DNA of 64,000 nucleotides from Evansella cellulosilytica DSM 2522. GTDB lineage: Bacteria > Bacillota > Bacilli > Bacillales > Salisediminibacteriaceae. The notes beneath the pieces were generated by a model. It was not told the DNA's origin and searched no databases. It saw only the letters and a program-made list of their open reading frames with translations. The stretch's first letter is position 1. Each line of letters begins with the position of its first letter. The stretch is from the NCBI RefSeq assembly GCF_000177235.2, contig NC_014829.1, positions 3,658,001 through 3,722,000 of the forward strand, read 5' to 3'. This document shows positions 15,968-60,963 of the stretch, in pieces. The position numbers were made by a program, and so were the translations under genes.

Positions 15968-16055
15968 AGTCTTTTCTTAGAAGCAGTGGAATTTCGCCGT
16001 AGCTCTTAAAGTACTAGTGAGTAGTCTTCTCGCTACTACCCATGGCATCGGCACC
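15968..16055 (+). repeat. dispersed imperfect palindrome, copy A (right arm decayed)
   Basis: Begins AGTCTTTTCTTAGAAGCAG and contains GTGGAATTTCGCCGT and the inner arm AGTACTAGTGAG shared with the copies at 33669, 39608 and 60883. The outer right arm has diverged. It lies downstream of metQ. Confidence 0.75.
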
Positions 16056-16120
16056 TCTTTTTTATATGATTTTGCTCTTAAAATGAGAAAAACTCCATCC
16101 CCTAAGCTAATACATCTATA

Positions 16121-16162
16121 AAAAAGGTGACTCAGTAGGTAAAATTTACCTTTTGAGTCACC
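16121..16162 (-). terminator. metNPQ operon terminator
   Basis: GGTGACTCA-GT-AGGTAAA pairs with TTTACCTTTTGAGTCACC. The minus strand continues with TTTTTT. It begins 8 bases after the metQ stop. Confidence 0.9.
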
Positions 16163-16169
16163 AGCATAC

Positions 16170-17060
16170 TTATTCAGCAGGTACTACTGCACCATCATAA
16201 GTTTCTAAAATAAAGTTTTTAACATCCTCAGAACGAAGTACTTGTAATAATGTAGTGATACGCTCGTCATTTTCATCTCCACTACGTACAGCAATAACGT
16301 TTACGTATGGGTTATCTTGGTCACCAGACTCAAGTGCAATTGCGTCTTCAACAGGATTTAAACCAGCATCTAAAGCGTAGTTAGAATTAATTAAAATTGC
16401 GTCACCTTCATTGTGCTCATAAGCAGTTGGTAATAATGCTGCTTCGACATTAGCTAAAAACTCAAAGTTTTTTGGATTCTCTACAATATCATCTAGAGAT
16501 GCACCAATACCTGCACCTTCTGCTAATGTAATTAATCCATGATCCTCAAGCATCATTAAAATTCTACCATGATCAGCAACTGAATCACTTAAAATAAATT
16601 GCGCTCCCTCAGGTAGTTCATCTAAGCTGCCATAATCTTGAGAATAAACACCAATTGGTTCAATATGAATGCCACCAGCATTAACAAAGTCATAGCCTTG
16701 TTCTTCAATTTGCATCTCTAAGTAAGGAATGTGTTGGAAATAGTTAGCGTCTAATTCACCAGCATCTAACGCTTCGTTTGGTAAAACATAATCGTTAAAT
16801 GTAACAATCTCTAAATCAATTCCCTCTTCTACTAGTAGTGGCTTTACAAATTCTAACACCTCTGCATGTGGAACATTAGTCGCCCCTATAACTAATGATA
16901 CTAATTCTTCAGTAGTTGCATCATCTTCTGTTGTTTCTTCTACTTCTCCAGCATCAGCAGTACCTTGCTCATCAGTTGTTTCATCTTCTCCAGTACCACA
17001 AGCTGCTAAAATACTTAACGAAAGACCAAATGCAGTAATTAATTTAACTAATTTTTTCAT
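16170..17060 (-). CDS. metQ: methionine ABC transporter substrate-binding lipoprotein MetQ
   Basis: A 296-residue NlpA/MetQ-family lipoprotein. The lipobox is LSILAACGTGE with the lipid-modified Cys at about residue 21, followed by an acidic linker (EVEETTEDDATTEE). The binding domain carries VIGATNVPHAEVLEF and NYFQHIPYLE. It captures methionine outside the membrane for the MetP/MetN importer. It is the last gene of an S-box-controlled operon and is 22 bases after metP. Confidence 0.95.
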   Translation of the reverse strand: MKKLVKLITAFGLSLSILAACGTGEDETTDEQGTADAGEVEETTEDDATTEELVSLVIGATNVPHAEVLEFVKPLLVEEGIDLEIVTFNDYVLPNEALDAGELDANYFQHIPYLEMQIEEQGYDFVNAGGIHIEPIGVYSQDYGSLDELPEGAQFILSDSVADHGRILMMLEDHGLITLAEGAGIGASLDDIVENPKNFEFLANVEAALLPTAYEHNEGDAILINSNYALDAGLNPVEDAIALESGDQDNPYVNVIAVRSGDENDERITTLLQVLRSEDVKNFILETYDGAVVPAE

Positions 17061-17082
17061 CTAAATTTACCCCCAATTATTT

Positions 17083-17769
17083 TTATCTTTTATCTAATCT
17101 ATTGGTTAAACGATCGCCGATAAATTGAATAATAAAGACGATCAGTAACACAATCAATGTTGCCATCAGCGTAATGTCGGTATTTCGTCGTTGGAAACCA
17201 TCTCTAAACGCTAAATCACCTAATCCACCAGCACCTATGACCCCAGCCATTGCTGTATAACCTACTAATGCGATGGCAGTGACTGTCAAGCCTGATACTA
17301 ATGCTGGCATTGATTCTGGCAATAATACTTTAAAGATAATTTGTCTATTACTAGCGCCCATTGCCTTTGATGCTTCAATCACCCCCTTATCAATTTCTCT
17401 TAGTGCAATTTCTACCATACGAGCGTAAAACGGTGCTGCCCCTATAATTAATGCTGGTAGTGCAGCGGAAGGACCTAACATCGTTCCTACAATGATTCTC
17501 GTAAATGGAATTAGCAAGACGATCAGTATAATAAAAGGAATCGACCGAAAGACATTGACATATGCCGAAATAACACCTTGAATAATTCTGTTCTCCCATA
17601 GGTTACCTTTATCTGTTAAAAAGAGAAGTAAACCTAGTAATATCCCAAATAGAAATGTAAACAGCAGTGAGTATGATGTCATATAAATCGTTTCTTTTGT
17701 CGCATCCCACATGTTGGGCCATTTTACATTTTCAAATAATAAAATATTATAGATCGTTCCTATATTCAT
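17083..17769 (-). CDS. metP: methionine ABC transporter permease MetP (MetI type)
   Basis: A 228-residue permease with five hydrophobic segments. The EAA loop that docks the ATPase is EASKAMGASNRQIIFKVLLP. It overlaps metN by four bases (ATGA). It forms the membrane channel for methionine uptake. Confidence 0.95.
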   Translation of the reverse strand: MNIGTIYNILLFENVKWPNMWDATKETIYMTSYSLLFTFLFGILLGLLLFLTDKGNLWENRIIQGVISAYVNVFRSIPFIILIVLLIPFTRIIVGTMLGPSAALPALIIGAAPFYARMVEIALREIDKGVIEASKAMGASNRQIIFKVLLPESMPALVSGLTVTAIALVGYTAMAGVIGAGGLGDLAFRDGFQRRNTDITLMATLIVLLIVFIIQFIGDRLTNRLDKR

Positions 17770-18788
17770 GGATGGATCACCTCCACTTGTACCTTTTGCT
17801 CACGGATATAAGCAATTACTCTCTCTAACTCACTAGCCTCACCGTCTACATTAATGAAAAGCGATCCATAGGGTCCATTTTGAGTTTGACTAATCTTCCC
17901 TTGTAAAATATTTACCGTAACATCAAATGTACGAATGATATTTGTAATTAAAGGCTTTTCTGCTTCTCTTCCAACAAAAGTTAACTGCAAAACATGACCG
18001 ATATCTTCTTCCTCTAATAGATGTCTAATTGCTTCTTCAGTTTCTTCCGGTTCAGTCACTTGCTTCACAAACTCTTTTGTCATTTCTTGTTTTGGATGCT
18101 TGAAAACTTCTAAAACATTCCCTTGTTCTACTATTTTTCCTTGCTCCATTACAGCAACTCTATGACATATTTTTCTTATAACATGCATCTCGTGTGTAAT
18201 TAAAACAACAGTAAGACCAAGCTTTTTATTTATATCTACTAGTAGTTCCAAGATAGAATCAGTTGTTTTTGGGTCTAACGCCGAAGTTGCCTCATCACAT
18301 AACAACACCTTCGGGTTATTTGCAAGTGCTCTTGCTATACCAACTCTTTGTTTTTGTCCACCACTTAACTGTGAGGGGTATGAACCTCCACGTCCTTCAA
18401 GTCCAACTAAACGAATTAGCTCCTCAACCCGCTCATCACGTTCCGTTTTTGGTACTCCTTTAATTTCTAACGGAAAAGAGATATTTTCTTTTACTGTTCG
18501 AGACCAAAGTAAGTTAAAGTGTTGAAATATCATTCCTATTTCTTGACGTGCCGCTCTAAGTTTTTTACTTGAAAGCTTGTTCATCGTCTTCCCTGCTATC
18601 GTTACTTCACCAGAGCTTGGGGTTTCAAGCATATTTAACAATCTTATTAGTGTACTTTTGCCGGCCCCACTATATCCGATGATCCCGAAAATCTCACCTT
18701 CATCAATTGTTAAATTTATTTCATCGACAGCGGTGACTTTCCCATCACGAGTATTAAATGTTTTCACAAGATTCGATAACGAAATCAT
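17766..18788 (-). CDS. metN: methionine ABC transporter ATP-binding protein MetN
   Basis: A 340-residue ATPase. Walker A is GYSGAGKST, the signature is LSGGQKQRVGIARAL, Walker B is VLLCDEATSALDP, and the switch His is in LITHEMHV. The C-terminal 75 residues form the NIL (ACT-like) domain that senses methionine in this family. It is the first gene of the operon and follows an S-box leader. Confidence 0.96.
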   Translation of the reverse strand: MISLSNLVKTFNTRDGKVTAVDEINLTIDEGEIFGIIGYSGAGKSTLIRLLNMLETPSSGEVTIAGKTMNKLSSKKLRAARQEIGMIFQHFNLLWSRTVKENISFPLEIKGVPKTERDERVEELIRLVGLEGRGGSYPSQLSGGQKQRVGIARALANNPKVLLCDEATSALDPKTTDSILELLVDINKKLGLTVVLITHEMHVIRKICHRVAVMEQGKIVEQGNVLEVFKHPKQEMTKEFVKQVTEPEETEEAIRHLLEEEDIGHVLQLTFVGREAEKPLITNIIRTFDVTVNILQGKISQTQNGPYGSLFINVDGEASELERVIAYIREQKVQVEVIHP

Positions 18789-18941
18789 CTTCTTTGCCCC
18801 CTCTTTGGTTCTTTTAAAACTAGTTTTTTTTGTGTTGGCTCACTATAAGCCTTATAATCTATTATCCCTATACGCATAGTGCGGATTGTATATAGTAGAA
18901 TGTTAGAATTTTATTATTATCTCAAGAAATTGTATTTTAAT

Positions 18942-18987
18942 AAAACAAAAACCTTTCTGCTCTCACGAAAGATAAGCAGAAAGGTTT
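18942..18987 (-). terminator. regulated terminator of the metNPQ S-box leader
   Basis: AAACCTTTCTGCT (from 18948) pairs perfectly with AGCAGAAAGGTTT (18975-18987), then a T-rich run on the minus strand. It is placed between the SAM aptamer and metN, as expected for a transcriptional off switch. Confidence 0.92.
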
Positions 18988-19002
18988 CTCTATTATGAAA
19001 CC

Positions 19003-19113
19003 TACCCCTCATCTATCAAAGCATCACACTTTGCAGGAATTGGCACCTTTTCCAAGTCACCTTGGTGGTTGCCGGGCTTCATCGGGCCAGTCCCTCCGCC
19101 TCTCTGGATAAGA
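19003..19113 (-). ncRNA. SAM-I (S-box) riboswitch before metN
   Basis: On the minus strand the conserved S-box elements appear in order: CTTATCCAGAGAGG, GGAGGGACTGGCCCGATGAA, CCCGGCAACC, GGTGCCAATTCCTGC, and GATGAG. SAM binding favours the downstream terminator and shuts off the methionine importer when SAM is plentiful. Confidence 0.97.
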
Positions 19114-19190
19114 AAGTATTATTATTTTAGTAAATTAACATCGCTCTTGTGGAATCATATCACGGCTATAAAAAGAATGTCAATTATTTT

Positions 19191-19529
19191 TTACCGGAAA
19201 TTTTTACTTAAGTAAAGGAGTGACTCTAGCAATAAAAGATCCTTCAGCTGACCACTAACTCCTAACTCACCTCTTTTTTTCATAGAGATGAGGAAGTCTT
19301 CTCCTTGTAGCAATAGCCTAAGTGATTCAATATCACCTTCAATGATGACATCCCCAACTGTATCTTTCACAGACTCAATGTCTATGTTCTGTCCATTAAA
19401 ACGAACGATCCATTGCTCCTCGTCACAAATAAAACAAACATTTATGAATGCTTTATCTACTAGTTCATTCATATGAATTGACTTTCGAATTCGATTGACC
19501 GACGCTAAGAGAAGCTCATGCATCATCAT
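19191..19529 (-). CDS. yusD: SCP2 sterol-binding-like domain protein YusD
   Basis: A 112-residue protein with the SCP2-like pattern: a strand pair around WIVRFNGQNIDIE, then GDVIIEGDIESLRLLLQGEDFL. Family members bind lipophilic ligands, but the role of YusD is unknown. Its place just upstream of metN's leader matches B. subtilis. The best start among MMMHE is uncertain by one or two codons. Confidence 0.75.
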   Translation of the reverse strand: MMMHELLLASVNRIRKSIHMNELVDKAFINVCFICDEEQWIVRFNGQNIDIESVKDTVGDVIIEGDIESLRLLLQGEDFLISMKKRGELGVSGQLKDLLLLESLLYLSKNFR

Positions 19530-19593
19530 CCCGCCCTTACTAAGGTTATACCTAATTGAGGTATTCTCCTTTTAAGGACAATTTCCCTTTTTT

Positions 19594-20871
19594 TTATCCG
19601 ACATTTTCTATTTGTTTCTCTTTTTTATGCGGAATTTGTTTTCTAAAAACAAAGAAGAAGTAAAGCGTACCTGCTAAATAAAGAACACCAGTAATCGAAA
19701 ATACGATTGCATAACCTGAATAAGCACCGTAAACCATCACAATTGTTGTAGAGACTGGTCCCATCACTGCCCATCCTAGCTGGAATACTGCTTGACCTAC
19801 CGAATTTGCTAATCCTTTAATTGAGTCATCAACACTTCGCATCATAAGTGACATTTGAATGGGATTACCTGCGTTCATTAATGCTTGCCTAAATAAAAAA
19901 CCAAATACTGCCCAATAAATATTTTGTGTATAGGCAGTGAGAAGAAGAAATGGAATGGATAATAGTTGTAAAATAACAACTGCTTTAACTTCTCCAACCT
20001 TATTCACGACTGCTGGACCTATAAGAAGAGCGACTGCTGTCATTGCTTGACCTGCAGATATGATAATCCCTACGAGTGAATGAGAGATTTCAAATCTATC
20101 TACGAAATATAGATTCAAGTATGGAATGACAAGTCCTGATCCGAAGCCAATCAGTATTTGTGCGATAGCAAATAAAATAATAATTTTAAATCCAGCCCGG
20201 TGTGTTTTAAATAAACTTTTAAAAGAACGATCTTGTACTGTTTGCGATGTTAGCTTTTTCTCTTCCTTTATTTTCAAGAAAGATGGTAAAGCTAGCACGA
20301 CAAATCCAACACCAATCAGTAACGTCAAACGTATACTCCATAATGCATCAAAGCCTAAAATCAAATGAAAGAAGTCACTTAATGTACCACCCAATGTATT
20401 TCCTATGACGTTCACAACCATAATTATCGCAAAGTTAAAACTAAATAAGTGAACGCGTTGTTTTTCAGTTGAATTTTCAGCTAGCAACGGAATAGAGGAA
20501 ACTTGAATAAATGCCATAAAAATACCTGTCATAAATGCCGTTCCTAAAAGTAGTATCTCAACGGAAAGAACAGCTCTAAGTAATAAGCTTAAAGCCGCAA
20601 AGATACCACCAATATAAATGAGCTTTTTTCTTCCAACCCGATCACTTAAAATTCCTGCTGGCAATAGTAACAGTGCTGTAGCGATAGATTGCATTGCAAT
20701 AACTGAACCGTTCGTTTGGTCACTATATCCTAACTCACGAATGTAATAATTGTAAATGATCATAAAAATTCCCATGCCTATATGTGCAAATATAGAGCCA
20801 GTGAGAAATAAACGTACGTTGCGATTGTATCCCTTGAATTGATTTGACCAATCGCCTACGAATTTTGTCAT
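19594..20871 (-). CDS. MFS transporter
   Basis: A 425-residue membrane protein with about 12 hydrophobic segments. The MFS loop 2-3 motif is GILSDRVGRKKLIYIGG, and a long basic central loop (KIKEEKKLTSQ) separates the halves. The substrate is unknown; drug or sugar efflux are both possible. It occupies the place where yusE-yusF lie in B. subtilis. Confidence 0.85.
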   Translation of the reverse strand: MTKFVGDWSNQFKGYNRNVRLFLTGSIFAHIGMGIFMIIYNYYIRELGYSDQTNGSVIAMQSIATALLLLPAGILSDRVGRKKLIYIGGIFAALSLLLRAVLSVEILLLGTAFMTGIFMAFIQVSSIPLLAENSTEKQRVHLFSFNFAIIMVVNVIGNTLGGTLSDFFHLILGFDALWSIRLTLLIGVGFVVLALPSFLKIKEEKKLTSQTVQDRSFKSLFKTHRAGFKIIILFAIAQILIGFGSGLVIPYLNLYFVDRFEISHSLVGIIISAGQAMTAVALLIGPAVVNKVGEVKAVVILQLLSIPFLLLTAYTQNIYWAVFGFLFRQALMNAGNPIQMSLMMRSVDDSIKGLANSVGQAVFQLGWAVMGPVSTTIVMVYGAYSGYAIVFSITGVLYLAGTLYFFFVFRKQIPHKKEKQIENVG

Positions 20872-21492
20872 GAAATTTCCTGCCTTCCACCTCTTAAAGT
20901 CAAAATATTTAGGTTACTTCGAGTCTCTAAATATATACTTATCATAGCCGATGGAAGAAAATTTGAAAAGATATTATTTTAATATTTACATGGATAATAC
21001 TGTGAATGTTACTTAGGAAATAATAAAAGTGGCTGACTTAAAAGGTGAAAATTCGAAGAGCACTGAAAAAGTAAAAAACATGATTGTATCCTGTATTAAT
21101 ATTCATAAGCCATAATTTAAGGACGAATTGATGATCCTGGAGCAAGCGAGGTAACTGTCTCTTCCTCTACGCGCATATGCTTTGGAGCGTATCCGTAACT
21201 GTATGAGCATATAGAGAAATAACAAAAGAGAAAAAATGCTGATGGAGCAGCGTCGAGACAACTCGAAGCTTCATCAAAGAAGCGTCGCTCTTCCTGTGGA
21301 AAAGTAAGTCAGGGTGAGACACTGCAGAGCGAGGCTCGAAGCGGCTTGCCGACTCTCTACGAAAAAGCGAATTTGTGCAGGTCTCATCAACTTTTATATT
21401 CAAATGACCTTATATTTATTAGCCTCCCCTTTCAATCTAGGACTTTTTAAGTGCCATTGTGTTCTTTCACTTTTTCAGTGTTCCTTAGCAAT

Positions 21493-21568
21493 GTATGTAG
21501 CCGTTGCAATCGTTAAAAAGCCTGATAGGAGTGAGTTTCTCCTATCAGGCGAGTGTAGCCATTGCAAT
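21493..21568. repeat. direct repeats TGTAGCCRTTGCAAT flanking the yusG terminator
   Basis: TGTAGCC-G-TTGCAAT near 21496 and TGTAGCC-A-TTGCAAT near 21554 flank a 12-bp perfect hairpin. A similar GTGTAGCCATTGC follows another long hairpin at 53723-53754, so the combination recurs in the window. Confidence 0.55.
21515..21550 (-). terminator. terminator downstream of yusG
   Basis: GCCTGATAGGAG (21520-21531) pairs perfectly with CTCCTATCAGGC (21539-21550). The minus strand continues TTTTTAACG. It is about 140 bases after yusG. Confidence 0.85.
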
Positions 21569-21579
21569 ACAATTAATAG

Positions 21580-21613
21580 GCACTGAAAAGTTGCTTTTTA
21601 CTTTTTCAGTGGC
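21580..21613. repeat. GGCACTGAAAAGT palindrome
   Basis: GGCACTGAAAAGT pairs with ACTTTTTCAGTGGCC around about 8 bases. Same family as 29847-29885 and 30591-30628. Confidence 0.7.
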
Positions 21614-21692
21614 CTCATATCGCCCCTTTTAAGTCACCCTCTTGGACAATTCTTGTGAAGAGTATAACAAGCATTTTTATGAAAAAAGGAAA

Positions 21693-21998: not shown

Positions 21999-22080
21999 CC
22001 CTTCCTTACTTTTATGATTTACACTCTGTGCAATAAGTATGAAAGGAAAAAAACGTTAATATAAAGTAAGTTTGTTGTAG

Positions 22081-22122
22081 AAAAGACTAAAACGAGCTTC
22101 ACTAAGCTCGTTTTTAGTCTCT
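22081..22122 (-). terminator. terminator downstream of gcvH
   Basis: AGACTAAAACGAGCTT pairs with AAGCTCGTTTTTAGTCT around CACT. The minus strand ends in TTTTCTAC. The stem abuts the gcvH stop. Confidence 0.85.
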
Positions 22123-22123
22123 T

Positions 22124-33128: not shown

Positions 33129-33612
33129 TTAACACCATCTCCTATTATTTTTTTTACTAGCATGAAGATTACTTTATCATCACCCTCTATTCATAGAAAA
33201 CTTTGTCACTTATATAAAATCTAACCATTCATTCTACTAACTGTCAATATATTCAGATAACTGCTATGTGAATATGACTCATAAATTTAGAATTATATAA
33301 GTATAAGATGAATCATAGTATTTATTAACACATTCTCACTATTACAAGTGCTTTTCCGGAATTTAATTTCACATTTTTATTATTATAAAATAGAATATAG
33401 CCGCTGTTAATCGGACTATATTCATCGCCTTCCTTCTATTAATATAGTTTCTGTCTATCAAAATGATGAAATAGTAATATAGTAATTTGTTTCTTTTATA
33501 TCTATTGACCTAATCATATATCTATTAAATTTGTGTCATTTGTTCTATTGATTTTCTACATAGGCTTATAGTAGATTTACAATATCTCCATTGGATACAT
33601 TTTTTACCATAA
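33129..33612. other. AT-rich upstream region of the Vpr-like protease
   Basis: About 480 bases of very AT-rich sequence before the repeat element at 33613. It should hold the protease promoter on its left. No ORF, RNA or clear binding site was seen. Confidence 0.5.
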
Positions 33613-33742
33613 GAAAAAAACTAAAAACAGGCTTGGCAAAGCTCATTTTTAGTCTTTTCTTAGTAGCAGTGGAATTTCGCCGTAGCTTTTAAAGTGCTGG
33701 TGAGTGCTCTTCTCACTAGTACGCACGGCGATAAAATTCCAC
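33613..33742 (+). repeat. dispersed imperfect palindrome, copy B
   Basis: A terminator-like stem (ACTAAAAACAGGCTT...AGTC, 33613-33657) leads into the palindrome at 33669-33742. Outer arm GTGGAATTTCGCCGT pairs with ACGGCGAT-AAAATTCCAC with a three-base bulge. The inner arms GTGCTGGTGAG and CTCACTAGTAC pair fully only if two G-U pairs are allowed. Confidence 0.85.
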
Positions 33743-33774
33743 TACCAAATTTATACTTTCTTATCTTCTGAGAA

Positions 33775-33810
33775 AAAGAGAGGCTCCCTAGGGGCCTCTC
33801 TTTTTATTAT
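33775..33810. terminator. terminator downstream of the stand-alone secY
   Basis: AGAGAGGC...GCCTCTCT flanked by A-rich and T-rich runs on both strands, so it can act in either direction. On the minus strand it ends transcription of the SecY gene. Confidence 0.85.
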
Positions 33811-38268: not shown

Positions 38269-38384
<116 letters not shown>

Positions 38385-39579: not shown

Positions 39580-39687
39580 AAAGAGGATGTCCCAAAAGCT
39601 ATTAGAAGCAGTGGAATTTCGCCGTACCTCTTATAGTACTAGTGAGTTCTCTTCTCGCTAGTACGCACGGCGATAAAATTCCACTGC
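39580..39687 (+). repeat. dispersed imperfect palindrome, copy C
   Basis: Outer arms GCAGTGGAATTTCGCCGT (39608-39625) and ACGGCGAT-AAAATTCCACTGC (39667-39687) pair with a three-base bulge. Inner arms GTACTAGTGAG and CTCGCTAGTAC pair with one G-T. It lies between converging genes. Confidence 0.88.
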
Positions 39688-39710
39688 CAATTTTATACGC
39701 TTATCTTATA

Positions 39711-40262: not shown

Positions 40263-40428
40263 TTGCTTCGCCTCCAATCATTATTATGTTTTACATGAAA
40301 GTAAAAAAATATGAAGCAGGCTGTCCCAAAAGCTATTATAATTTCTGGCAATGAATCCACTCGGCGTGCGCTAACTACAAGAAATCGACTTATAATGGGC
40401 TTTAAGAGATTGCGGTGGCACATTGCAT

Positions 40429-40473
40429 AGAGGATGACTCAAAGGTAAAAATTCGACTTTTTAAGTCACCCTC
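40429..40473 (-). terminator. hairpin after the SMP-30 gene
   Basis: GAGGATGACTCAAAGG pairs with CTTTTTAAGTCACCCTC with mismatches. It is just after the stop at 40480. The T-run is poor. It is similar to stems at 15065, 16121 and 49988 that share GACTCA/TGAGTC arms. Confidence 0.5.
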
Positions 40474-41564: not shown

Positions 41565-43394
41565 ATGAAATCCATTACAAAGAGACATAGCTTCATGCTG
41601 TTTAGTCTCACCTTTTTATGGATAAAAACACTCATTATTTCCATGACTACATTCCAATTAACGATAAATTATTTTTTAGAAGCTGTTACGTTCATACTAA
41701 GTCCGCTCGTTTTTTTAGTCGTTGTTTTTGGACTCGGCCTTTATTTCAAACCAAAGTGGCAAGGCTATTACTTTCTTTTTATTAGTGTGTTACTAACAAT
41801 TGTGTTATATTCTAACGCCGTTTACTACCGTGAGTTCAGTGATATTATTACACTACCTATGCTGTTAATGAGTGGCAATATGGGGGATTTATCGACTAGT
41901 ATTATTGAACTTATTCATTGGTACGATGTATTTTTCTTTTTAGACCTATTTATTATCGGCTATTTCATATGGAAAAAACCAAAATGGGTTCGATTTGAAA
42001 AAATAACATTTCAGCAATCTAAAGCGGCTGTTGTCGTCATACTCGTGATTATCACTATTTCAATCGCGCAAGTAAGTACGTTAGACAGAGCGCAAGCATT
42101 TAATAGAACGTTTCTCGTTCAATCGTTAGGATTATATAACTTCTATATATATGATGCATTTGTCCAAACACAAACGAGCGTTCAGACTGTGTTTGCAGAA
42201 GAAAATGATTGGACTAATATTAACAAGCATTTAGATGAAAATCGCGTTGCACCAAACGATGACATGTTTGGTATTGCTAAAGACATGAATGTTATCGTCG
42301 TGTCACTAGAATCTGTCGAGAGCTTTGTTATTGGTGAGGAATTAAATGGACAGGAAATAACCCCATTTCTCAATGAGCTTATTGAAGATAGCTTTTACTT
42401 CGATAATTTCTATTATCAAACAGGTCAAGGAAAAACGTCAGACGCTGAGTTTCTTATTAACAACTCCTTATATCCGCTAGGAAGAGGTGCTGTATTTCTG
42501 ACACACGATCAGAATGAATATCGTGCACTTCCCGAAACCCTTACTAATTACGGATATGAAACAGCGAATTTTCATGCAAATGACCGATCCTTTTACAATA
42601 GGGACGTTATGTACCCTAACTTAGGTTATAACCGAATATATTCATTTAGTGATTATGATATTTCCATGCGTAATTCTGTCGGATGGGGGATGAAAGACAT
42701 TGATTTTGTTGAACAATCAATGGATTACATTACTGAGCTACCTGAACCTTTTTATAGTACACTACTAACACTTACAAATCATTTTCCGTACCACTTAGAC
42801 GAGGAAGATCATTTCATTGAACCATTTAATTCGAATAGTAATATTGTAAATCAATACTTTCCAACTGTCAGATACACAGACGAAGCAATGAGAATTTTAG
42901 TTGATCAATTAAAAGAAGAAGGTTTATATGAAAACACTGCATTAATTATGTATGGAGATCATTATGGCATTGCAAATAGTCATTATGATGAGCTTAGCAA
43001 ATTTTTAGGGAAAGAGATTAACCTTTATGAGGCTGTGAAACTGGAACGAGTACCACTCATTATTCACATACCAGGTGTAGATGGGAAAACAATATCAACC
43101 ATTTCTGGGCAAGTTGATGTGATGCCATCACTCTTAAATTTACTGGGGATTCCGGAAGATGATCACGTCATGTTTGGCAATGATTTATTTGCTGAAAACC
43201 GCGAAGAGTTTGCTGTACTAAGGGATGGAACAGCCATTTCCAATGAACTAATATCAGTAAATGGTTCTTGCTTAAGCTACACTACCGGTGAAGAATTCCC
43301 TTTAGAAAAGTGTGATTCATTACGAGAAAAAGGTGAAGAAGCGCTTTTCTATTCAGACAAAATCATCTATGGTGACCTATTCCGTTTTAATTGA
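41565..43394 (+). CDS. lipoteichoic acid synthase family protein (LtaS-like)
   Basis: A 609-residue membrane-anchored sulfatase-fold enzyme. Five hydrophobic segments fill residues 10-170. The extracellular domain has the LtaS motifs: VVSLESVESFVIG with the metal Glu, GKTSDAEF with the catalytic Thr, HANDRSFYNRDVMYP, LTNHFPYHL and YGDHYGI with the Asp-His pair. It polymerises glycerol phosphate from phosphatidylglycerol, or acts as an LTA primase. It is slightly shorter than B. subtilis LtaS (649). A signal-peptidase-like site (TVFAEE) follows the membrane part. GGAAGG precedes the ATG. Confidence 0.92.
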   Translation: MKSITKRHSFMLFSLTFLWIKTLIISMTTFQLTINYFLEAVTFILSPLVFLVVVFGLGLYFKPKWQGYYFLFISVLLTIVLYSNAVYYREFSDIITLPMLLMSGNMGDLSTSIIELIHWYDVFFFLDLFIIGYFIWKKPKWVRFEKITFQQSKAAVVVILVIITISIAQVSTLDRAQAFNRTFLVQSLGLYNFYIYDAFVQTQTSVQTVFAEENDWTNINKHLDENRVAPNDDMFGIAKDMNVIVVSLESVESFVIGEELNGQEITPFLNELIEDSFYFDNFYYQTGQGKTSDAEFLINNSLYPLGRGAVFLTHDQNEYRALPETLTNYGYETANFHANDRSFYNRDVMYPNLGYNRIYSFSDYDISMRNSVGWGMKDIDFVEQSMDYITELPEPFYSTLLTLTNHFPYHLDEEDHFIEPFNSNSNIVNQYFPTVRYTDEAMRILVDQLKEEGLYENTALIMYGDHYGIANSHYDELSKFLGKEINLYEAVKLERVPLIIHIPGVDGKTISTISGQVDVMPSLLNLLGIPEDDHVMFGNDLFAENREEFAVLRDGTAISNELISVNGSCLSYTTGEEFPLEKCDSLREKGEEALFYSDKIIYGDLFRFN

Positions 43395-43395: not shown

Positions 43396-43442
43396 AAGAA
43401 AAGACTAAAACCGAGCTTAGTAAAGCTCGGTTTTAGTCTTTT
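43396..43442. terminator. terminator of the LTA synthase gene
   Basis: AGACTAAAACCGAGCTT and AAGCTCGGTTTTAGTCT pair perfectly around AGTA and are followed by TTTT. It starts just after the stop codon. Confidence 0.93.
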
Positions 43443-43760
43443 CTTAGAAGCGGTGAAGAAATGTTGCCACATGTCTTTAAAGTAGTAGTGAGTGCTCTTC
43501 TCACTACTACGCGTGGCTGCATTTCCACCGCCTAAATATACATTACATTTCTCTTATGCAGAACTAAAACCGAGCTTAGTAAAGCTCGGTTTTTGTCTTT
43601 TCTTAGAAGCGGTGAAGAAATGTTGCCACATTTCTTTTAAAGTAGTAGTGAGTGCTCTTCTCACTACTACGCGTGGCTGCATTTCCACCGCCTAATATAT
43701 ATTACATATCTTTTAAGCAGTACTAAAACCGAGCTTGATGAAGCTCGGTTTTTTGTCTTT
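43396..43760 (+). repeat. tandem terminator-plus-palindrome units (copies D and E)
   Basis: Three stems with CGAGCTT/AAGCTCG arms (43396, 43562, 43722) alternate with two palindromes (43450-43531 and 43609-43691), a period of about 160 bases. The palindromes have outer arms GCGGTG/CACCGC and GAAATGTTGCCAC/GTGGCTGCATTTC and inner arms GTAGTAGTGAG/CTCACTACTAC. They lie between converging genes. Confidence 0.88.
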
Positions 43761-43794
43761 CTTATGAAAATTTCAATGCCAAGTTTTATACTTA

Positions 43795-50067: not shown

Positions 50068-50075
50068 CAGTAACA

Positions 50076-51446: not shown

Positions 51447-51467
51447 AAGTTCAAACAGTTTACTTAA

Positions 51468-51570
51468 AGTCTTTTTTAGAAACAGTGAAGAAAGACTATC
51501 ACTGTTTTCATAAGTAGTAGTGAGTGCTTTACTCACTACTACTTGTCGTGAAACTTTACCGCTTAAGATA
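51468..51570 (+). repeat. dispersed imperfect palindrome, copy G
   Basis: Inner arms AAGTAGTAGTGAGT (from 51512) and ACTCACTACTACTT (to 51544) pair perfectly around GCTTT. The left flank has AACAGTGA/TCACTGTT as its own hairpin in place of the usual long outer arm. It lies between converging genes. Confidence 0.78.
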
Positions 51571-51585
51571 AGGCTTCTATTAATA

Positions 51586-54375: not shown

Positions 54376-54428
54376 TTTAAAAAGAGGGTGCCCACAAGCC
54401 ACTATATTATGACCATGGAACACCCTCT
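54376..54428 (-). terminator. terminator of the NlpC/P60 gene
   Basis: AGAGGGTG (54383-54390) pairs with CACCCTCT (54421-54428), with an inner CCA/TGG stem. The minus strand ends in TTTTT. Confidence 0.8.
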
Positions 54429-54435
54429 CAAATTA

Positions 54436-55704
54436 CTATTCTATTACACGTACTACTCGTCCGTTAAATGTACGTTGCCAGTAGCCACTATTCATGTTCG
54501 CAATCGCAACACCTGTTGAGCTTTGGGAACCGATGAATTGTCCATTACCGATGTATATACCTACATGTCCATCTCTTTTATAAGTATCAAAGAAAACAAG
54601 GTCTCCTGGTTTCATTTCACTTCTCGACACTTGGCGTCCAGCATGTTTTTGTTCATCTGTACTGTATCCAAGATAAACACCAACTTGTGCAAAAGCCCAA
54701 CGTGTAAACCCTGAACAATCAAACCTACCGTGTTGAATATCATATGCTGTACGTCCACCACCAAATACATAATATGAGTTACCGATATATTTTCTTCCAC
54801 CATTAATTACTTGGTTGATGTCACCTGATGAAACTGTGTTGGAAGAAGTTTGCGTATTACTCGTATGTACATTATTAGATATTTCATTCGTGTCATTATT
54901 CGCAGTAGCTTGTGCTCTCGCTTCTTCCTCTTGACGCGCTCTAGCTAATTCTTCCTCAATTCTTTGTCTAATAGACGATTCTTGAGAAGCAAGTTGGCTG
55001 TCTTGTTCAGCTAAGTTAGCAATTAACTGTTCTGTTTCTTCTTCTTTTTTAGTAAGCTCTTTTTTCATTTCTTCATTTTGTTCTTGCTGCTGCATTAAAT
55101 GATGTTGCATTCCTTCAAGCTCAATCATCATTTCTTTAAGTCCTGATAGCTTGTCCTCTAATGCAGTCTGCGTTTCCTCTAATTCTACTAAATTTGCTTC
55201 ATATTGATTAAGCATATCAGTATCGGCTTTCGCTATTTGTGTAATGGAGAATACACGGTCAACGAAATCAGTAAAGCTTTGAGCACCTAAAATGACCTCT
55301 AAGTAGCGTATGTTTCCTCCGCTTTGCTGATAAGCTACAGCTCTTTGAGATAACATTTCAAACCTACGGTCAATATCATCCTCTAATTTAGCAATATCTG
55401 ACTCCATTACTTCAATCTCTTCATTAGTTTCTTCGATACTTTCTTCAGTATCTTTAATCGTTTGCTCATTGTCTTGAATTGCTTCTTCTGCAAGCTCAAT
55501 TTGTCTATTTAATTGATCTAATTCTTCTAACACTTCTGCTATTTCTTGTTCAGCTTCTGATAGTGTAGATTGAATTTGCTCTCGTTCTTCTCTTATGTCA
55601 TTTAGTTCCTGGTTAGTTTCGGCAAATGCAGGAGGTACAGCTAATGTACTACATAGCCCGACAATCATCATCGCGTGTAGTAATTTTCTTCTCTTTTTTT
55701 GCAC
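54436..55704 (-). CDS. NlpC/P60 peptidoglycan endopeptidase, CwlO-like
   Basis: A 422-residue secreted hydrolase. It starts at a GTG with GGGGAAG upstream. The signal peptide ends near PPAFAET (residue 29). Residues 30-260 are a long Glu/Gln-rich coiled coil with the block LEVILGAQSFTDF at 135-147. The C-terminal NlpC/P60 domain has RFDCSGFTRWAF (nucleophilic Cys) and DGHVGIYIG (His). It should cut D-Glu/DAP stem-peptide bonds during wall growth. In B. subtilis CwlO is controlled by FtsEX through its coiled coil. Confidence 0.92.
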   Translation of the reverse strand: MQKKRRKLLHAMMIVGLCSTLAVPPAFAETNQELNDIREEREQIQSTLSEAEQEIAEVLEELDQLNRQIELAEEAIQDNEQTIKDTEESIEETNEEIEVMESDIAKLEDDIDRRFEMLSQRAVAYQQSGGNIRYLEVILGAQSFTDFVDRVFSITQIAKADTDMLNQYEANLVELEETQTALEDKLSGLKEMMIELEGMQHHLMQQQEQNEEMKKELTKKEEETEQLIANLAEQDSQLASQESSIRQRIEEELARARQEEEARAQATANNDTNEISNNVHTSNTQTSSNTVSSGDINQVINGGRKYIGNSYYVFGGGRTAYDIQHGRFDCSGFTRWAFAQVGVYLGYSTDEQKHAGRQVSRSEMKPGDLVFFDTYKRDGHVGIYIGNGQFIGSQSSTGVAIANMNSGYWQRTFNGRVVRVIE

Positions 55705-55947
55705 TATCTTCCCCTACTTCCCTTATTAGTTACTATTAAAATACAAATCTATTATGTATGAAATCTATTTCAACTAGTTAGTAGTATAGCACCAAAAAAT
55801 AACAATCGTGTAATACAAATGTTACAGTTATATTTCAAAATACCAACAATTCTCTATTATTTAGTTTATTTTTTTTAGAAAGTGGGAATGATTTAAAGTC
55901 GACCCTATCTCCAAAATTGTATAACTATGTCAACTTTTTTCTTATAT
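55705..55947. other. upstream region of the NlpC/P60 gene
   Basis: AT-rich sequence holding the promoter of the hydrolase gene (minus) on its left. No RNA or binding site was recognised. Confidence 0.45.
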
Positions 55948-56122
55948 GCTATGTTAAACTTTGTTGTTGATTTTCACTTCAGAAAGCTCGCTTGTCTCTT
56001 CCTCTTCCTGTTTCGCTTTGAAGATGCATCCGTCGAGACAACTCGAAGCTTAATCGTGATGTAACGCTCGTCGCAGGCGTTTCGTACCTTTCGAGAAAAT
56101 CAACATTATCCTTTAACATAGC
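55948..56122. repeat. element with about 28-bp terminal inverted repeats
   Basis: Left end GCTATGTTAAA...TGTTGATTTTC (55948-55975) and right end GAAAATCAACA...TTTAACATAGC (56095-56122) are inverted repeats matching at 23 of 28 positions. The 119-base inside holds TGTCTCTTCCTCTTCC and a block (56031-56051) identical to 21251-21271. No ORF of note is inside. It resembles a miniature mobile or structural element. Confidence 0.78.
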
Positions 56123-56129
56123 CTATTAA

Positions 56130-56157
56130 AAAAAGCCCTCAATATTTTGAGGGCTTA
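56130..56157 (-). terminator. glpD terminator
   Basis: AAGCCCTCAA pairs with TTGAGGGCTT; the minus strand continues with seven T in all. It is about 25 bases after the glpD stop. Confidence 0.92.
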
Positions 56158-56181
56158 TCACTACTACATATGATTGTTCCA

Positions 56182-57780
56182 TTACTTTTGTATCATATAC
56201 AATAATCTATTAACGAGATCACTACGATTCATAGATTTTCTCCAATTAAAGTAATAATCGCCAGTACGTCTTATCAAATAATCTTCAGCCTTTACAACCA
56301 TTTCTTCTTCCACACAATAATACAATTCAGCCTTCAGCTCGCATTCTGTATTGAACCTGTATTTATTCAATTCTACAAACCTCTCGAAAACTTTATCTAC
56401 ATTTGTCCCATAGCGATGAATGAGCGTCCATGCCTTCTTTTTCTCAAAACCTATCTTACTTGCTAACTCCAATTTTTCTTTCACAAAGTTCTCCCATCTA
56501 TTTGCACCACCTACATCTCCACCAGATAATGTGATGTGTTGCGTTTCACAACGAGGGTATGAGCCTCGATACTCTTCTGCTAGCTGTTTAACAACGAGAT
56601 TTACTGTTTTTTCTGCCATTTTTCTAAAACCTGTTAGCTTACCTCCAGCAATCGTAATAAGACCGGAGTTTGAAAGGAATATTTCGTCTTTCCGTGAAAG
56701 ATCAGACGGTGATTTTCCTTCCTCATGAATAAGTGGTCGTAGCCCTGCCCAAGAAGACTCAATATCATCAACAGATATATTAATAGAAGGAAACATGTTG
56801 TTTGTTGCTTTTATTAAATAGTTTTTATCCTCTATCGACACTGTAGGATCGGCTAAATCACCTCTGTATGTCGTGTCAGTTGTTCCTATATAAGTTTTGT
56901 CTGCACGAGGAATAGCAAAAATCATTCTCCCATCTTCAACATCAAAGTACATCGCCTGCCTTAAAGGAAAACGCTTTTGATCTACAACGATGTGGACACC
57001 TTTCGTAACGTGTAAATGTTTTCCTGTTAATGAGCGATCTTGCTTTCTGATTGAATCTACCCAAGGACCAGTTGCATTCACAATTTTTTTTGCATAAATG
57101 TGATGTGTTTTCCCACTTATTGAGTCAAAAGCTACTCCACCGTTTACCTTCCCACTTTCGTTATAAATAAGCTCTTCCACTCCACAGTAATTAACAGCAT
57201 TCGCCCCTAAAGAAAAGGCTGTCTTAACTACTTCAAGTGTAAGCCTCGCATCGTCTGTCTGATATTCATAATATAAACCGGCCCCCTTCAAGCCTTCGTC
57301 TCTTAATAAAGGCTCCTTTTTTAATGCCTCTTCTTTCGATAGCATCTTTCTTCGTTCTTGTTTTTTTACTTGTGCCAAACGATCATATACATATAATCCA
57401 AAAGAAGTGGATATCTTTCCGAAAGAGCCGTTCTTTATAAGTGGGAGTAGCATTGGTTCTGGTTTAACGATGTGAGGTGCATTTTCATGCAGTATCGCTC
57501 TTTCCCTTCCAACTTCTTTCACTAGCTTTATTTCTAATTGCTTCAAATACCTTAAACCACCATGAATAAGCTTTGTAGAACGGCTACTCGTTCCAGCAGC
57601 GAAATCCTGCATTTCCAACAGCCCAACCTTTAATCCTCTATTTGCAGCATCTAAGGCGATGCCACATCCTGTTATACCTCCACCAATTATGAGTAAATCT
57701 AATTCTCCCGATGACATTTCATTTAAAAAGTGTTGTCTATTTTGCTGTGAAAACGTTCTGACCATAATGACAAACACCAC
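56182..57780 (-). CDS. glpD: aerobic glycerol-3-phosphate dehydrogenase GlpD
   Basis: About 530 residues. The FAD motif is DLLIIGGGITGCGIALDAA, then GTSSRSTKLIHGGLRYLK, both typical of GlpD. It oxidises glycerol 3-phosphate to dihydroxyacetone phosphate and feeds electrons to the quinone pool at the membrane. The start may be GTG at 57780 or ATG at 57765; AAGGATG suits the former. glpF, glpK and glpP are not in the window. Confidence 0.95.
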   Translation of the reverse strand: MVFVIMVRTFSQQNRQHFLNEMSSGELDLLIIGGGITGCGIALDAANRGLKVGLLEMQDFAAGTSSRSTKLIHGGLRYLKQLEIKLVKEVGRERAILHENAPHIVKPEPMLLPLIKNGSFGKISTSFGLYVYDRLAQVKKQERRKMLSKEEALKKEPLLRDEGLKGAGLYYEYQTDDARLTLEVVKTAFSLGANAVNYCGVEELIYNESGKVNGGVAFDSISGKTHHIYAKKIVNATGPWVDSIRKQDRSLTGKHLHVTKGVHIVVDQKRFPLRQAMYFDVEDGRMIFAIPRADKTYIGTTDTTYRGDLADPTVSIEDKNYLIKATNNMFPSINISVDDIESSWAGLRPLIHEEGKSPSDLSRKDEIFLSNSGLITIAGGKLTGFRKMAEKTVNLVVKQLAEEYRGSYPRCETQHITLSGGDVGGANRWENFVKEKLELASKIGFEKKKAWTLIHRYGTNVDKVFERFVELNKYRFNTECELKAELYYCVEEEMVVKAEDYLIRRTGDYYFNWRKSMNRSDLVNRLLYMIQK

Positions 57781-57925
57781 ATCCTTTTTCTTTAGGTTAA
57801 AACTAAACGTTCAGATTTAGAAATAACACTCATTCCTACATGTATTTTGGATAGCCTTTCCTTATACCTTTAAAACGTGAATATTAGTGGATACATGAAA
57901 AAACAAGGGGAGTTTTGGGCAACAA

Positions 57926-57961
57926 AAAAACGTAGATGTTATACCGTTACATCTACGTTTT
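57926..57961 (-). terminator. terminator overlapping the stop codon of the 67-residue ORF
   Basis: AAAACGTAGATGT pairs with ACATCTACGTTTT. The stop codon of the 57939 gene is in the loop, so the last codons form one arm. Confidence 0.82.
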
Positions 57962-58142
57962 CAATAGGGATGTCTAATGATTTAATTGTTTCTATAAATT
58001 GATCTTCTGAAAAATTTTGCTTTGGCTGTATTTCAAGAACATGATCTTCTTTAAATGTCGGTATTCCACGATAGTAGCCAACAAACAACCTTACTTTTTC
58101 CTTTTCATCCAAGGTTAACATGCGTGTAAATGTTATCTCCAT
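57939..58142 (-). CDS. hypothetical protein (67 residues)
   Basis: A small charged protein (starts MEITFTRMLTLDEKEKV). A GGAGG-like site precedes the ATG. No family was recognised. A terminator follows immediately and another precedes the gene at 58259, so it is a separate transcription unit between glpD and the YibE/F gene. Confidence 0.6.
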   Translation of the reverse strand: MEITFTRMLTLDEKEKVRLFVGYYRGIPTFKEDHVLEIQPKQNFSEDQFIETIKSLDIPIENVDVTV

Positions 58143-58258
58143 ATTATAACCTCCATTATTACTATACCGAAAAATAGAGACAAACTCTAGTAATTGCCGA
58201 AAAAAAGCTTAAATATACGAAAACAATAATTATTTATCAAAATTATACAAAAAATAGC

Positions 58259-58287
58259 ACATACAAAAGGTCCCCCCTTTTGTATGT
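58259..58287 (-). terminator. terminator after the YibE/F gene
   Basis: ACATACAAAAGG pairs perfectly with CCTTTTGTATGT around TCCCC; the minus strand then reads GCTATTTTTTG. Confidence 0.88.
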
Positions 58288-58336
58288 ACCTAACTATAGA
58301 ATATTCCCTCTGTCGTTTTTTATAAAATACATGCTA

Positions 58337-59452
58337 TTACTTACTTTTTTTTATAAAAATAGAAGCTACAAATGCTGTAATTGGTATAGATAATATTAAT
58401 CCAATGCTCCCCGCTGCAGTTCTCAATATTTCCACTGCTAAAAACTCCCTATGAATTAACTCTGTAAGTGGATTATCTAAAGAATAAATAATCAGTAATA
58501 GAGGCAATGCTGCTCCAACATAAGCTAAAATTAATGTATTGGACATCGTCCCCATAATATCCTTTCCTACATTCATACCTGAGGTAAACAGTTTTTTCAT
58601 GGGAATCATTCGATCTGTTTTACGTACCTCCTCCATAGAAGAAGCAATGGAGATGGCTACATCCATCACGGCACCTAGTGCTCCAATAATGATTCCTGCC
58701 AGTAATAATCCTTTAAAATCTAGATTCATCTCCTGCGAGCTCGTGATGAGAAGCATGCGTTCATCATCACCATGTAAGCCTGTTAAATTCATCACGCTTG
58801 AAAAGATAATGGAGATGATAGCAGCAGAAGCTAACCCACCGATCGTACCAACAACTGCAGCTAACGTTTTTCTAGTAAAGCCACTTACAATAGTAAAAGT
58901 TAAAGCTGTTACGATACCACCTGTCACGATAGCTAACAATACAGGATTATATCCCGCTAAAAGATTTGGAATCATAAACTTAAATACGATGACGAGTGTA
59001 AATCCAAGCGTCAAGACTGCTTTCAACCCTTGTTTTCTACCTAGCGCTATGAGTAATGCTACGAAAATACTAATTAAAACAAGAGTTGAATAATCTCTTG
59101 CATAATCCATAACATCTGCTCTCACTATCTCACCATGATTCATTTCTAATTGAACCATGATTTTATCATTTTCTTCTACCCATATTGGAATATCCTCTGG
59201 ATAATTAAAACGTTCCGCAATCACTACTTCATTTTTCCATTCGCCTGTTAGTAACTTTACCTCTACAGATTGGTAGCCAATCTTATTGCCTGAAAATTCG
59301 TCAACGTACTGTTCTTCTTCAATGATAGATACTACCTCTGCTTTTAGTCGTTCTGTATTAGCCTGAGTGTCGGTGTCATCCATCGCTTTCGCTAACCCAC
59401 TTGGAATTACGGAAAACATAAGTAATAATGCAAAAATGAACATTGGTTTCAT
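58337..59452 (-). CDS. YibE/F family membrane protein
   Basis: 371 residues from an ATG at 59452 with AAAAGGAAC upstream; the in-frame ATG at 59473 contains that site. The N-terminus has a signal-like segment and an extracellular domain, then about seven to eight hydrophobic segments from residue 120. The YibE/F core is visible as VMDVAISIASSMEE and LILAYVGAALPLLLI. The transport function is not established. It follows the M23 gene by 3 to 24 bases, so the two likely share a transcript. Confidence 0.85.
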   Translation of the reverse strand: MKPMFIFALLLMFSVIPSGLAKAMDDTDTQANTERLKAEVVSIIEEEQYVDEFSGNKIGYQSVEVKLLTGEWKNEVVIAERFNYPEDIPIWVEENDKIMVQLEMNHGEIVRADVMDYARDYSTLVLISIFVALLIALGRKQGLKAVLTLGFTLVIVFKFMIPNLLAGYNPVLLAIVTGGIVTALTFTIVSGFTRKTLAAVVGTIGGLASAAIISIIFSSVMNLTGLHGDDERMLLITSSQEMNLDFKGLLLAGIIIGALGAVMDVAISIASSMEEVRKTDRMIPMKKLFTSGMNVGKDIMGTMSNTLILAYVGAALPLLLIIYSLDNPLTELIHREFLAVEILRTAAGSIGLILSIPITAFVASIFIKKSK

Positions 59453-59476
59453 ATACACTGTTCCTTTTCTCATATG

Positions 59477-60739
59477 TTAATTAATATATTTCATCGGGTC
59501 CACTGCGTTCGACTTACTTGCGTTCCAATCCCCTTCGTGAACTTCAAAGTGGAGATGTGGACCGAAAGACCTTCCTGTATTCCCCATGTTACCTAGAAAT
59601 TGTCCTCTAGACACAGTATCACCGGTATTAACAGCTCTATTTTCTAAGTGTGCATATAGCGTTGTAATCGTTTGTCCGTTAATGTTATGACGAATCATTA
59701 CTGTATTTCCATAGGAGGTAGAATAGTAAGAACGAATTACTGTCCCTGATTCTGCGGCAATAACTGGTACGTCACCGGTTCTCCCGTTCTTCCCAATATC
59801 AATCCCGTAGTGCATTTGTCCCCACCGCATTTCAAATCCAGTTGTAATTCTACCTGTTGCAGGTCGCTGTAAAATACCACTTGTCTGCGAAAAGTCGTTA
59901 TCATAATTGTTGCTTACATGATCGTTTGATGTATTGTTTTGCACTTCGGCTTGTTGTTGAAGCTCCCGTTCCTGCTCACGAATCGCCTCACGATCAGCTA
60001 ACTCCTGTTGCGCAGCACTTTCCTGTGCCTCGAGGTTCGCTCTCTCTTCATCTACCGTCACTACTTGATCTTGAAGCGTTCCTTCTTTTTGTACTAGCGC
60101 CTCTAATAGTTGACCTTTTTCTATCTTTTGTTCTTCTAATTCTACTTCTAATTTCTCTAAGCTATTTAATTGCGTTTCTAAGCTCATCAATTCTTCCTCT
60201 AAATTTTGTTGGTTAAACGCAAGCTTTTCTATATCTTCCATATGCATATCGATAATATTTCGATCTTGTTGAGAAATTGTATTGATCGCTATCACTCTTT
60301 CAATAAAATCGCCAAAACTTTGTGCTCCTAATATAACCTCTAAAAAACGAACAACACTTCCATTTTGATAAATAGATCGTAAACGTTCTTTTAACAGTTC
60401 GTCCCTTTGCTCGATTCTTTTCTCTATTATAGTAATCTCTTCTTCTAGCTCAATAATCGTTTGTTCTGTTTCATAAATTTCCTTATTTTTCTCCGATATG
60501 GCTTCACTTGTAGCCATCGTGTATTCATCAAGCCTACTAATCTCTTGATTCATTTCTTCAATTTCTAACTCTACTACTCCTAATTCTTGTTCAAGTAATT
60601 CAGCCTCTCTGTCTAGGCTATCTCTTTGATTTTGATAACTATTTATTTTCTCAAGCAAATCACTATCTTCACTCGCTATTACGGTTGTAGATAATAATCC
60701 AAATATCAAGATGAATGTGAGCATTATTTTTTTGAACAC
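59477..60739 (-). CDS. M23 family murein hydrolase or activator with coiled coil
   Basis: A 420-residue secreted protein. The signal peptide is about residues 1-22, then a Glu-rich coiled coil to about residue 260 with LEVILGAQSFGDF at 133-145. A C-terminal LytM/M23 domain follows with MHYGIDIGKN (His/Asp zinc ligands) and GPHLHFEVH. All ligands are present, so it could be an active endopeptidase rather than an activator. It shares its N-terminal module with the NlpC/P60 protein at 54436. Confidence 0.92.
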   Translation of the reverse strand: MFKKIMLTFILIFGLLSTTVIASEDSDLLEKINSYQNQRDSLDREAELLEQELGVVELEIEEMNQEISRLDEYTMATSEAISEKNKEIYETEQTIIELEEEITIIEKRIEQRDELLKERLRSIYQNGSVVRFLEVILGAQSFGDFIERVIAINTISQQDRNIIDMHMEDIEKLAFNQQNLEEELMSLETQLNSLEKLEVELEEQKIEKGQLLEALVQKEGTLQDQVVTVDEERANLEAQESAAQQELADREAIREQERELQQQAEVQNNTSNDHVSNNYDNDFSQTSGILQRPATGRITTGFEMRWGQMHYGIDIGKNGRTGDVPVIAAESGTVIRSYYSTSYGNTVMIRHNINGQTITTLYAHLENRAVNTGDTVSRGQFLGNMGNTGRSFGPHLHFEVHEGDWNASKSNAVDPMKYIN

Positions 60740-60867
60740 GATTAATCCCCTCTTCCATAGCTGTCCTAATAGTTTCTATCCTTACTTTAAGTGGAAACTA
60801 TGAAAAAAGTGTGGAGAGATGAATACAAGTTGATAACATCGTAGTAATATTGTTGTAATATAGCGGG

Positions 60868-60963
60868 AGTCTTTTCTTAGAAGCGGTGGAATTTCGCCGT
60901 ACCTCTCAAAGTAGTTAGTGAGTGCTCTTCTCGTTAGTACGCACGATGATAAAATACTACTGC
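60868..60963 (+). repeat. dispersed imperfect palindrome, copy F
   Basis: Left arm GCGGTGGAATTTCGCCGT (60883-60900) is intact; the right arm is changed to ACGATGATAAAATACTACTGC. Inner arms GTTAGTGAG/CTCGTTAGTAC pair partly. It lies downstream of the His-rich lipoprotein gene. Confidence 0.8.

Follow-up and report, generated by a model that had tools for sequence, protein, structure and literature searches.

The 64,000-nucleotide stretch of DNA analyzed here (C1:3658001-3722000, hereafter the window) comes from the alkaliphilic bacterium Evansella cellulosilytica DSM 2522, which has one chromosome of 4,681,672 bp; the genome report for Bacillus (now Evansella) cellulosilyticus gives the same length and a G+C content of 36.5% (PMC3617157). 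The window contains several copies of an intergenic repeat of ∼150 bp built around two hairpins, H1 and H2. Our results suggest that this repeat is an undescribed small non-autonomous mobile hairpin element with about a hundred copies in the genome. In the reading that we prefer, and to which we give a probability of roughly 55%, these elements insert into the single-stranded DNA of the lagging-strand template, 3' of a hairpin and T-run, and H2 is read by its shape. This reading is built on the family itself and its two-hairpin anatomy, on the covariation of the H2 stems, on an orientation bias, on the patterns at the junctions, and on one pair of filled and uninterrupted sites.

The ∼150-bp unit consists of the terminator-like hairpin H1, the hairpin H2, and a T-rich tail. 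In the canonical unit, H1 (AAGAAAARACTAAAAACGAGCTT-loop-AAGCTCGTTTTTAGTCTTTTCTTA), a nearly perfect terminator-like palindrome, is followed by GAAGC, by H2, and then by approximately CCAAATTTATACTTTCTTATCTTTT. H2 is made up of outer, middle, and inner stems, the last of 11-12 bp; about ten bases bulge out on the 5' side only, the loop reads TGNNYTT, and the 3' side carries GC. Types 1 and 2 are distinguished by their stems, and the sister subfamily, type 3 (subtypes 3a, 3b, and 3c), differs in its H1 hairpins and inner stems and carries the internal loop GCGAAGC. Tandem arrays with a unit of ∼135-157 bp are present. A reading of the window made from its letters alone (the sequence-only reading) had described an imperfect palindrome of ∼100 bp; the hairpin that it saw, H2, is real but forms only part of the unit. 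The left flank that it listed, AGTCTTTTCTTAGAAGC, has 61 genome occurrences at ≤2 mismatches, compared with 0 for a reversed control, and is the 3' arm of H1, a separate hairpin that it had overlooked.

As that reading had proposed, covariance models were used to search the genome and its relatives. R1 was built from 43 type 1 and type 2 copies (alignment A2), and R2 was built from 24 sister sequences (alignment A3). R1 gave at least 121 matches in the home genome at E ≤ 1, at least 108 of which score ≥40 bits, and R2 gave at least 135 at E ≤ 0.001; these counts are lower bounds, the R1 count coming from the best 150 of 2,391 first-look candidates and the R2 count being subject to the same cap. 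At E ≤ 1e-4, R1 has at least 108 matches in the home genome; three other Evansella genomes together have 23, all weak, and the seven of these that were examined are type 3-like. R2 has matches in five of nine Evansella genomes; within the GTDB family it finds structural relatives with other stem sequences in 14 of 35 genomes, which represent five of eight genera. Of 398 genomes sampled sparsely from the class Bacilli, at least three have R2 matches, which is a floor value: scoring was limited to the best nine candidates of each genome, and on this scale the home genome itself falls from 135 to nine matches. In a pattern scan of named genomes (nine stretches), Evansella vedderi DSM 9768 and one Bacillus metagenome-assembled genome showed the sister architecture; a single type 2 query had no match in plasmids and phages. 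In the open literature, most subscription papers being outside its scope, our search met no recognized description of the element.

Orientation, landing sites, and junctions

Orientation was scored relative to replication, with the terminus placed near 2.45 Mb by GC skew and with simple longest-open reading frame (ORF) calls as the gene set for the orientation and gap counts. When the 114 type 1 and type 2 copies scoring ≥35 bits are grouped into 92 loci (seven of the 121 matches fall below this cut), 86 loci have the same orientation relative to replication (p = 3e-19). A separate count with a fitted terminus found 104 of 108 copies in the same orientation. Gene direction had to be separated from replication because background genes (≥120 amino acids) are themselves mostly leading (237 versus 69 lagging). 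The replication rule holds for 26 of 30 loci at clean convergent gene pairs and for three of the four loci that lie between two lagging-strand genes. Orientation thus tracks replication rather than gene direction, and the convergent and lagging-gene loci speak against transcription as its cause. Type 3 is unbiased, both overall (56 versus 43 among the 99 matches scoring ≥50 bits, the 36 weaker ones of 135 being left out) and at convergent sites (20 versus 16). Since H2 is common to all types, the bias must be set by the ends or by the enzyme. We also considered the loop octamer GAGAAGAG, which we took as a possible SpoIIIE-like polar octamer, and rejected the idea: outside the elements it is leading-biased by 40:8, which is nothing special given that other octamers rich in purines reach 89%.

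Convergent gaps are enriched and make up 30 of 68 clean loci, compared with 22 of 147 element-free gaps of ≥150 bp (p = 1e-5), and divergent gaps are depleted (3 of 68 versus 28 of 147, p = 0.003). Of the 65 single copies, 24 have a hairpin and T-run that, in the sense of the leading gene, run directly into AAAAGATAAGAAAGTATAAATTTG, compared with 0.4 for shuffled flanks. By eye, 11 of these 24 abutting stems are mutually unrelated and are therefore the neighbors' own, five have an ACTAGC-like core, one resembles a type 3b H1, and seven belong to another element. The copies are not chance terminators, an explanation that the sequence-only reading had named as one that would refute it. At the other junction, the last flanking base is T in 40 of 47 cases, with a preceding A in 33 of 47, and at least five A within the seven bases after the tail were found in 23 of 43 cases, compared with 2 of 43 further out. 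Among the 37 copies near a same-strand ORF, 13 have the neighbor's TAA stop at the element's first bases (three of these 13 ORFs are <120 amino acids). These junction patterns fit insertion at a hairpin and T-run followed by AT.

Arrays are joined as TTTT|AAG. Because H1 also consists of a hairpin and a T-rich end, one copy could serve as the target for the next, which would explain these joints. An example of a filled site is found at C1:2331135, where a 3b element is split by a type 1 copy after its T7 and uninterrupted 3b copies correspond to the joined site. In this one pair (n = 1) no target duplication is seen, with ATA at both edges leaving 3 bp ambiguous; when the edges of 23 type 3b copies were inspected by eye, no clear target duplication was found.

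These observations led us to propose that type 1 and type 2 elements would insert into the single-stranded lagging-strand template directly 3' of a hairpin and T-run. The target would usually be the intrinsic terminator of a leading-strand gene and at times the H1 end of another copy, the latter giving rise to tandem arrays. Insertion behind a terminator would spare both neighboring genes and set one orientation per replichore, and the shape and unpaired bases of H2 would be kept because the moving enzyme reads the folded single strand. This proposal accounts for the orientation by replichore, for the fact that terminators of leading genes are used at convergent pairs as well, and for the harmless landing sites. 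Replication-coupled insertion into single strands and recognition of H2 are what we infer from these patterns.

Two other routes of insertion bear on the same observations. One is that the elements are miniature inverted-repeat transposable elements of an ordinary DDE-type insertion sequence (IS) with short inverted ends, whose orientation would come from landing beside terminators and from selection. The resemblance of type 1 and 3b ends to short inverted repeats and the lack of strand bias in type 3 speak for it. We consider it distinctly unlikely, as it leaves the 26 of 30 loci at convergent pairs unexplained, as the filled and uninterrupted pair lacks a target duplication (with 3 bp ambiguous), and as the six copies of a PF13751 IS have unrelated ends, in a search that covered this family and Y1. 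The other is that the elements are RNA-mediated and that the reverse transcriptase of a group IIC intron inserts them in trans. Group IIC introns target intrinsic terminator motifs, and those without an endonuclease are described as using replication-fork primers (PMC4424553); the elements here have the same landing pattern. This route is very unlikely in our view: in the terminator sense the element start is not GUGYG, and the window holds no intron match at gathering score, although the reverse transcriptase was not searched for genome-wide.

Several observations weigh against our proposal. Six of the 92 loci have the opposite orientation, and type 3 lacks the bias despite having H2 in common. 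By the junction test, 41 of 65 single copies have no terminator, 18 of 65 are also terminator-like in the opposite sense, and the hairpins of other elements are counted among the 24 that abut. No movement has been seen. The search for a moving enzyme and the imbalance of G-T pairs, both described below, also count against it.

Covariation of the H2 stems

The sequence-only reading held that the fold is kept while the stem sequence is not, and covariation in three alignments bears this out. In A2, 96.3% of cells pair, with changes on both sides in 98 cells compared with 36 in shuffles; two of the five measures scored on this alignment are not above shuffles, namely the number of pairs with both-side changes (6 versus 4.0, reached by 43 of 500) and the number of pair types (19 versus 20.2). 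In A3, 98.9% of cells pair, and 19 of 28 pairs have both-side changes, compared with 9.3. In A4, which holds 35 matches from other species (34 of them distinct), 98.4% of cells pair and 27 of 28 pairs have both-side changes, and sliding the partner leaves 29-48% paired; the covariation counts are inflated both by the fitting of these matches to the structure of the model and by the non-independence of related copies. The inner stem is swapped almost freely, and the bases of the bulge, loop, and internal loop are retained across genera. Based on these results, the covariation of the H2 stems is very strong.

Covariation alone does not prove selection, because compensating stem changes can also arise when imperfect palindromes are corrected by template switching. 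Template switching is known for bacterial quasipalindromes, and the elements are long imperfect palindromes, so that replication could have copied changes in one arm across to the other and left covariation that is unselected. Such correction should erase the one-sided bulge and the internal mismatches, yet both persist with their bases across genera, and it explains neither the location nor the orientation of the elements. As the source of the pattern it is, in our estimate, most improbable.

The sequence-only reading had seen in this pattern the mark of selection on an RNA fold. An RNA-level element, such as a 3'-untranslated region or small-RNA motif whose fold stabilizes or regulates transcripts, would be in keeping with the very strong covariation and the G-U pairs, and many bcr repeats of Bacillus cereus are reported to be transcribed (PMC3446304). 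The placement of the elements argues otherwise. They sit behind terminators and at stop codons, and because a terminator (24 of 65) or a stop codon (13 of 37) adjoins the element at those loci, H2 is expected there to lie outside normal transcripts. Their orientation follows replication and not genes. At gathering score, Rfam has no family for them, either in the window, where its only matches are two S-adenosylmethionine (SAM) riboswitches, or at three loci examined at E up to 1, where none of 11 matches reached that score. Selection on an RNA fold is thus unsupported, and an RNA-level element is unlikely; the better fit is a fold of single-stranded DNA that serves mobility.

The pairs also carry information on strand. 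On the canonical strand, G-T pairs outnumber A-C pairs (42:15, 15:2, and 59:21), an excess that comes largely from a few pairs. It hints at folding of the strand opposite the lagging template, which is not the strand that our proposal requires. The canonical strand is the more stable one; the difference is 1.2 kcal/mol for the biased types and 0.7 kcal/mol for the unbiased type, and on this comparison strand-biased hairpin stability was rejected as the main cause of orientation.

Moving enzyme and comparison with known systems

Searches of the Y1 and PF13751 families found no mobilizing enzyme. The genome has three Y1 genes (PF01797) of 191-262 amino acids that resemble RAYT (TnpA-REP), the transposase associated with repetitive extragenic palindromic (REP) sequences, and the 1.5 kb on either side of each contain other repeats. 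Y1 genes are present in 26 of 35 family genomes, and their occurrence is not in step with the element: G001, G003, G005, and G006, four Evansella genomes that have no R2 match, carry one, and two genomes with four and one R2 matches lack it (G010 and G022, respectively). RAYT was rejected as the mobilizer on these grounds. A DDE-type partner fared no better, as six of the seven PF13751 matches are near-identical IS copies (L269-L274, with a 491-amino acid frame) whose ends, TGAATCAATTTCAT, are unrelated to those of the element. The Y1 gene of 191 amino acids (L071:2200-3330, C1 ∼4384100-4385240) is followed by more than ten tandem REP-like palindromes of ∼80 bp (GAAGGTGAGAGTTTTGAACCCGGG...), which make up a REPtron of its own, and those of 253 and 262 amino acids (L069 and L070) have GGGACAGGT- and GGGACGGTTCT-type repeats nearby.

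We compared the element feature by feature with REPINs (inverted REP pairs), IS200/IS605, bcr repeats, and group IIC introns, and none fits fully. Like REP and REPIN sequences, which are associated with RAYT proteins and proposed to be moved as single-stranded DNA, the elements are high-copy intergenic palindromes with tandem clusters (PMC3116915, PMC6006769). A REP is a short hairpin with a GTAG or GTGG foot and a REPIN an inverted pair of them, whereas these elements have a large H2 with a one-sided bulge and a separate H1; neither A2 nor A3 has a 5' GT[AG]G foot with a short hairpin or an inverted REP pair, and none of the three Y1 genes is a RAYT gene flanked by these elements. IS200/IS605 transposons are reported to target the lagging-strand template and to have subterminal hairpins that the transposase reads (PMC6006769). 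Their mode of insertion, on that template and without target duplication, fits the orientation and junctions of the elements, but the G-T excess points to the other strand and the comparison has one site pair with 3 bp ambiguous; in this genome we saw neither a TnpA of IS200 size nor a gene-carrying element with these ends.

The bcr1-bcr18 repeats of the B. cereus group, which the sequence-only reading offered as an analogue, are fairly so in kind: they are described as intergenic, 100-400 bp long, present in up to 130 copies, and in some cases of conserved secondary structure (PMC6542083, PMC3446304). By description, the basis of this comparison, they differ in that their mobility is tied to TTTAT repeats and they themselves to the B. 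cereus group. Group IIC introns share insertion after intrinsic terminators (PMC4424553), seen here in 24 of 65 single copies, seven of them at other elements' hairpins; they differ from the element, which is ∼150 bp and geneless, with no GUGYG start seen at the junctions. The 52-nucleotide tandem repeats of B. cellulosilyticus are non-coding and come from the same genome (PMC8161180), but the two consensus sequences shown for them differ from the element, and the words hairpin, palindrom(e), and stem are absent from that paper.

Copies in the window and meaning of the family

The seven copies listed in the sequence-only reading were all found by R1, on the + strand (E from 2.8e-23 to 1.5e-8), with the next + strand match in the window at E = 0.34. 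That reading called all seven clear; five are good copies and are in the R1 training set, and two, both outside it, are decayed. The sequence bears out its account of the loop, left flank, and stem changes, and of the G-U pairing in the 33669 copy.

In the 33669 copy, H1 (33611-33664, +; from sequence and DNA folding) precedes a type 1 H2 (33666-33746, +; R1 match 33659-33758, E = 1.4e-19). A neighboring terminator's hairpin (33777-33801, −) lies outside the element, with its T-run abutting the element end, and is the proposed insertion target. In the 39608 copy (H2, type 1, 39608-39688, +; R1 39601-39700, E = 2.3e-20), a type 3b-like end (39583-39609) takes the place of H1, a sign of module exchange. 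Elsewhere in the genome, three loci (L034, L048, and L056) have half type 1/2 elements joined to type 3, with the break in the H2 loop and ∼50 bp of the half element repeated on the opposite side; the L048 fusion is a 227-bp array of three units. The 43450 and 43609 copies form a tandem pair. The first H1 (43396-43448, +) begins one base past the stop codon of a + strand gene (41565-43394) and is followed by a type 2 H2 (43450-43531, +; R1 43443-43544, E = 2.8e-23), a second H1 (43562-43607, +), a second type 2 H2 (43609-43691, +; R1 43602-43704, E = 4.5e-23), and a further H1-like hairpin (∼43720-43765), which gives the order H1-H2-H1-H2-H1 over 43396-43765. The 60883 copy retains a remnant of the H1 3' arm with a type 1 H2 (60868-60963, +; R1 60876-60976, E = 1.8e-15).

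The two weaker copies are a decayed type 1 element (15968-16073, +; R1 15976-16073, E = 1.1e-11) that keeps the H1 3' arm, the 5' half of H2, and the inner hairpin and has lost its 3' outer arms, and a divergent type 2-like element, the 51512 copy (51466-51576, +; R1 51475-51576, E = 1.5e-8). Two sister-subfamily relatives, both decayed, had been overlooked: a type 3c H2 (21481-21578, +; R2, 59.8 bits) and a type 3b-like H2 (40335-40433, −; R2, 51.2 bits). The two SAM riboswitches of the window lie at 19006-19114 (−) and 38273-38382 (−).

A broader and more tentative possibility, which we hold to be doubtful, is a superfamily of mobile hairpins, defined by H2, whose members have been joined to various end hairpins. 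One branch would be coupled to replication, seek terminators, and offer its own terminator-like end as the next landing site, and the enzyme would read shape and unpaired bases rather than stem sequence and would differ from any known RAYT or IS transposase.

If our preferred reading of lagging-strand insertion is true, E. cellulosilytica carries a miniature element with a clear landing rule, a hairpin and T-run on the lagging-strand template, together with a built-in control in the sister subfamily, which has the same hairpin and no strand bias. The family would then be a test system for how replication steers small mobile DNA and lets it spread without breaking genes, and for how a DNA hairpin can drift in sequence and still hold its shape. 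It would also show that intergenic repeats with strongly covarying stems do not necessarily have an RNA function.

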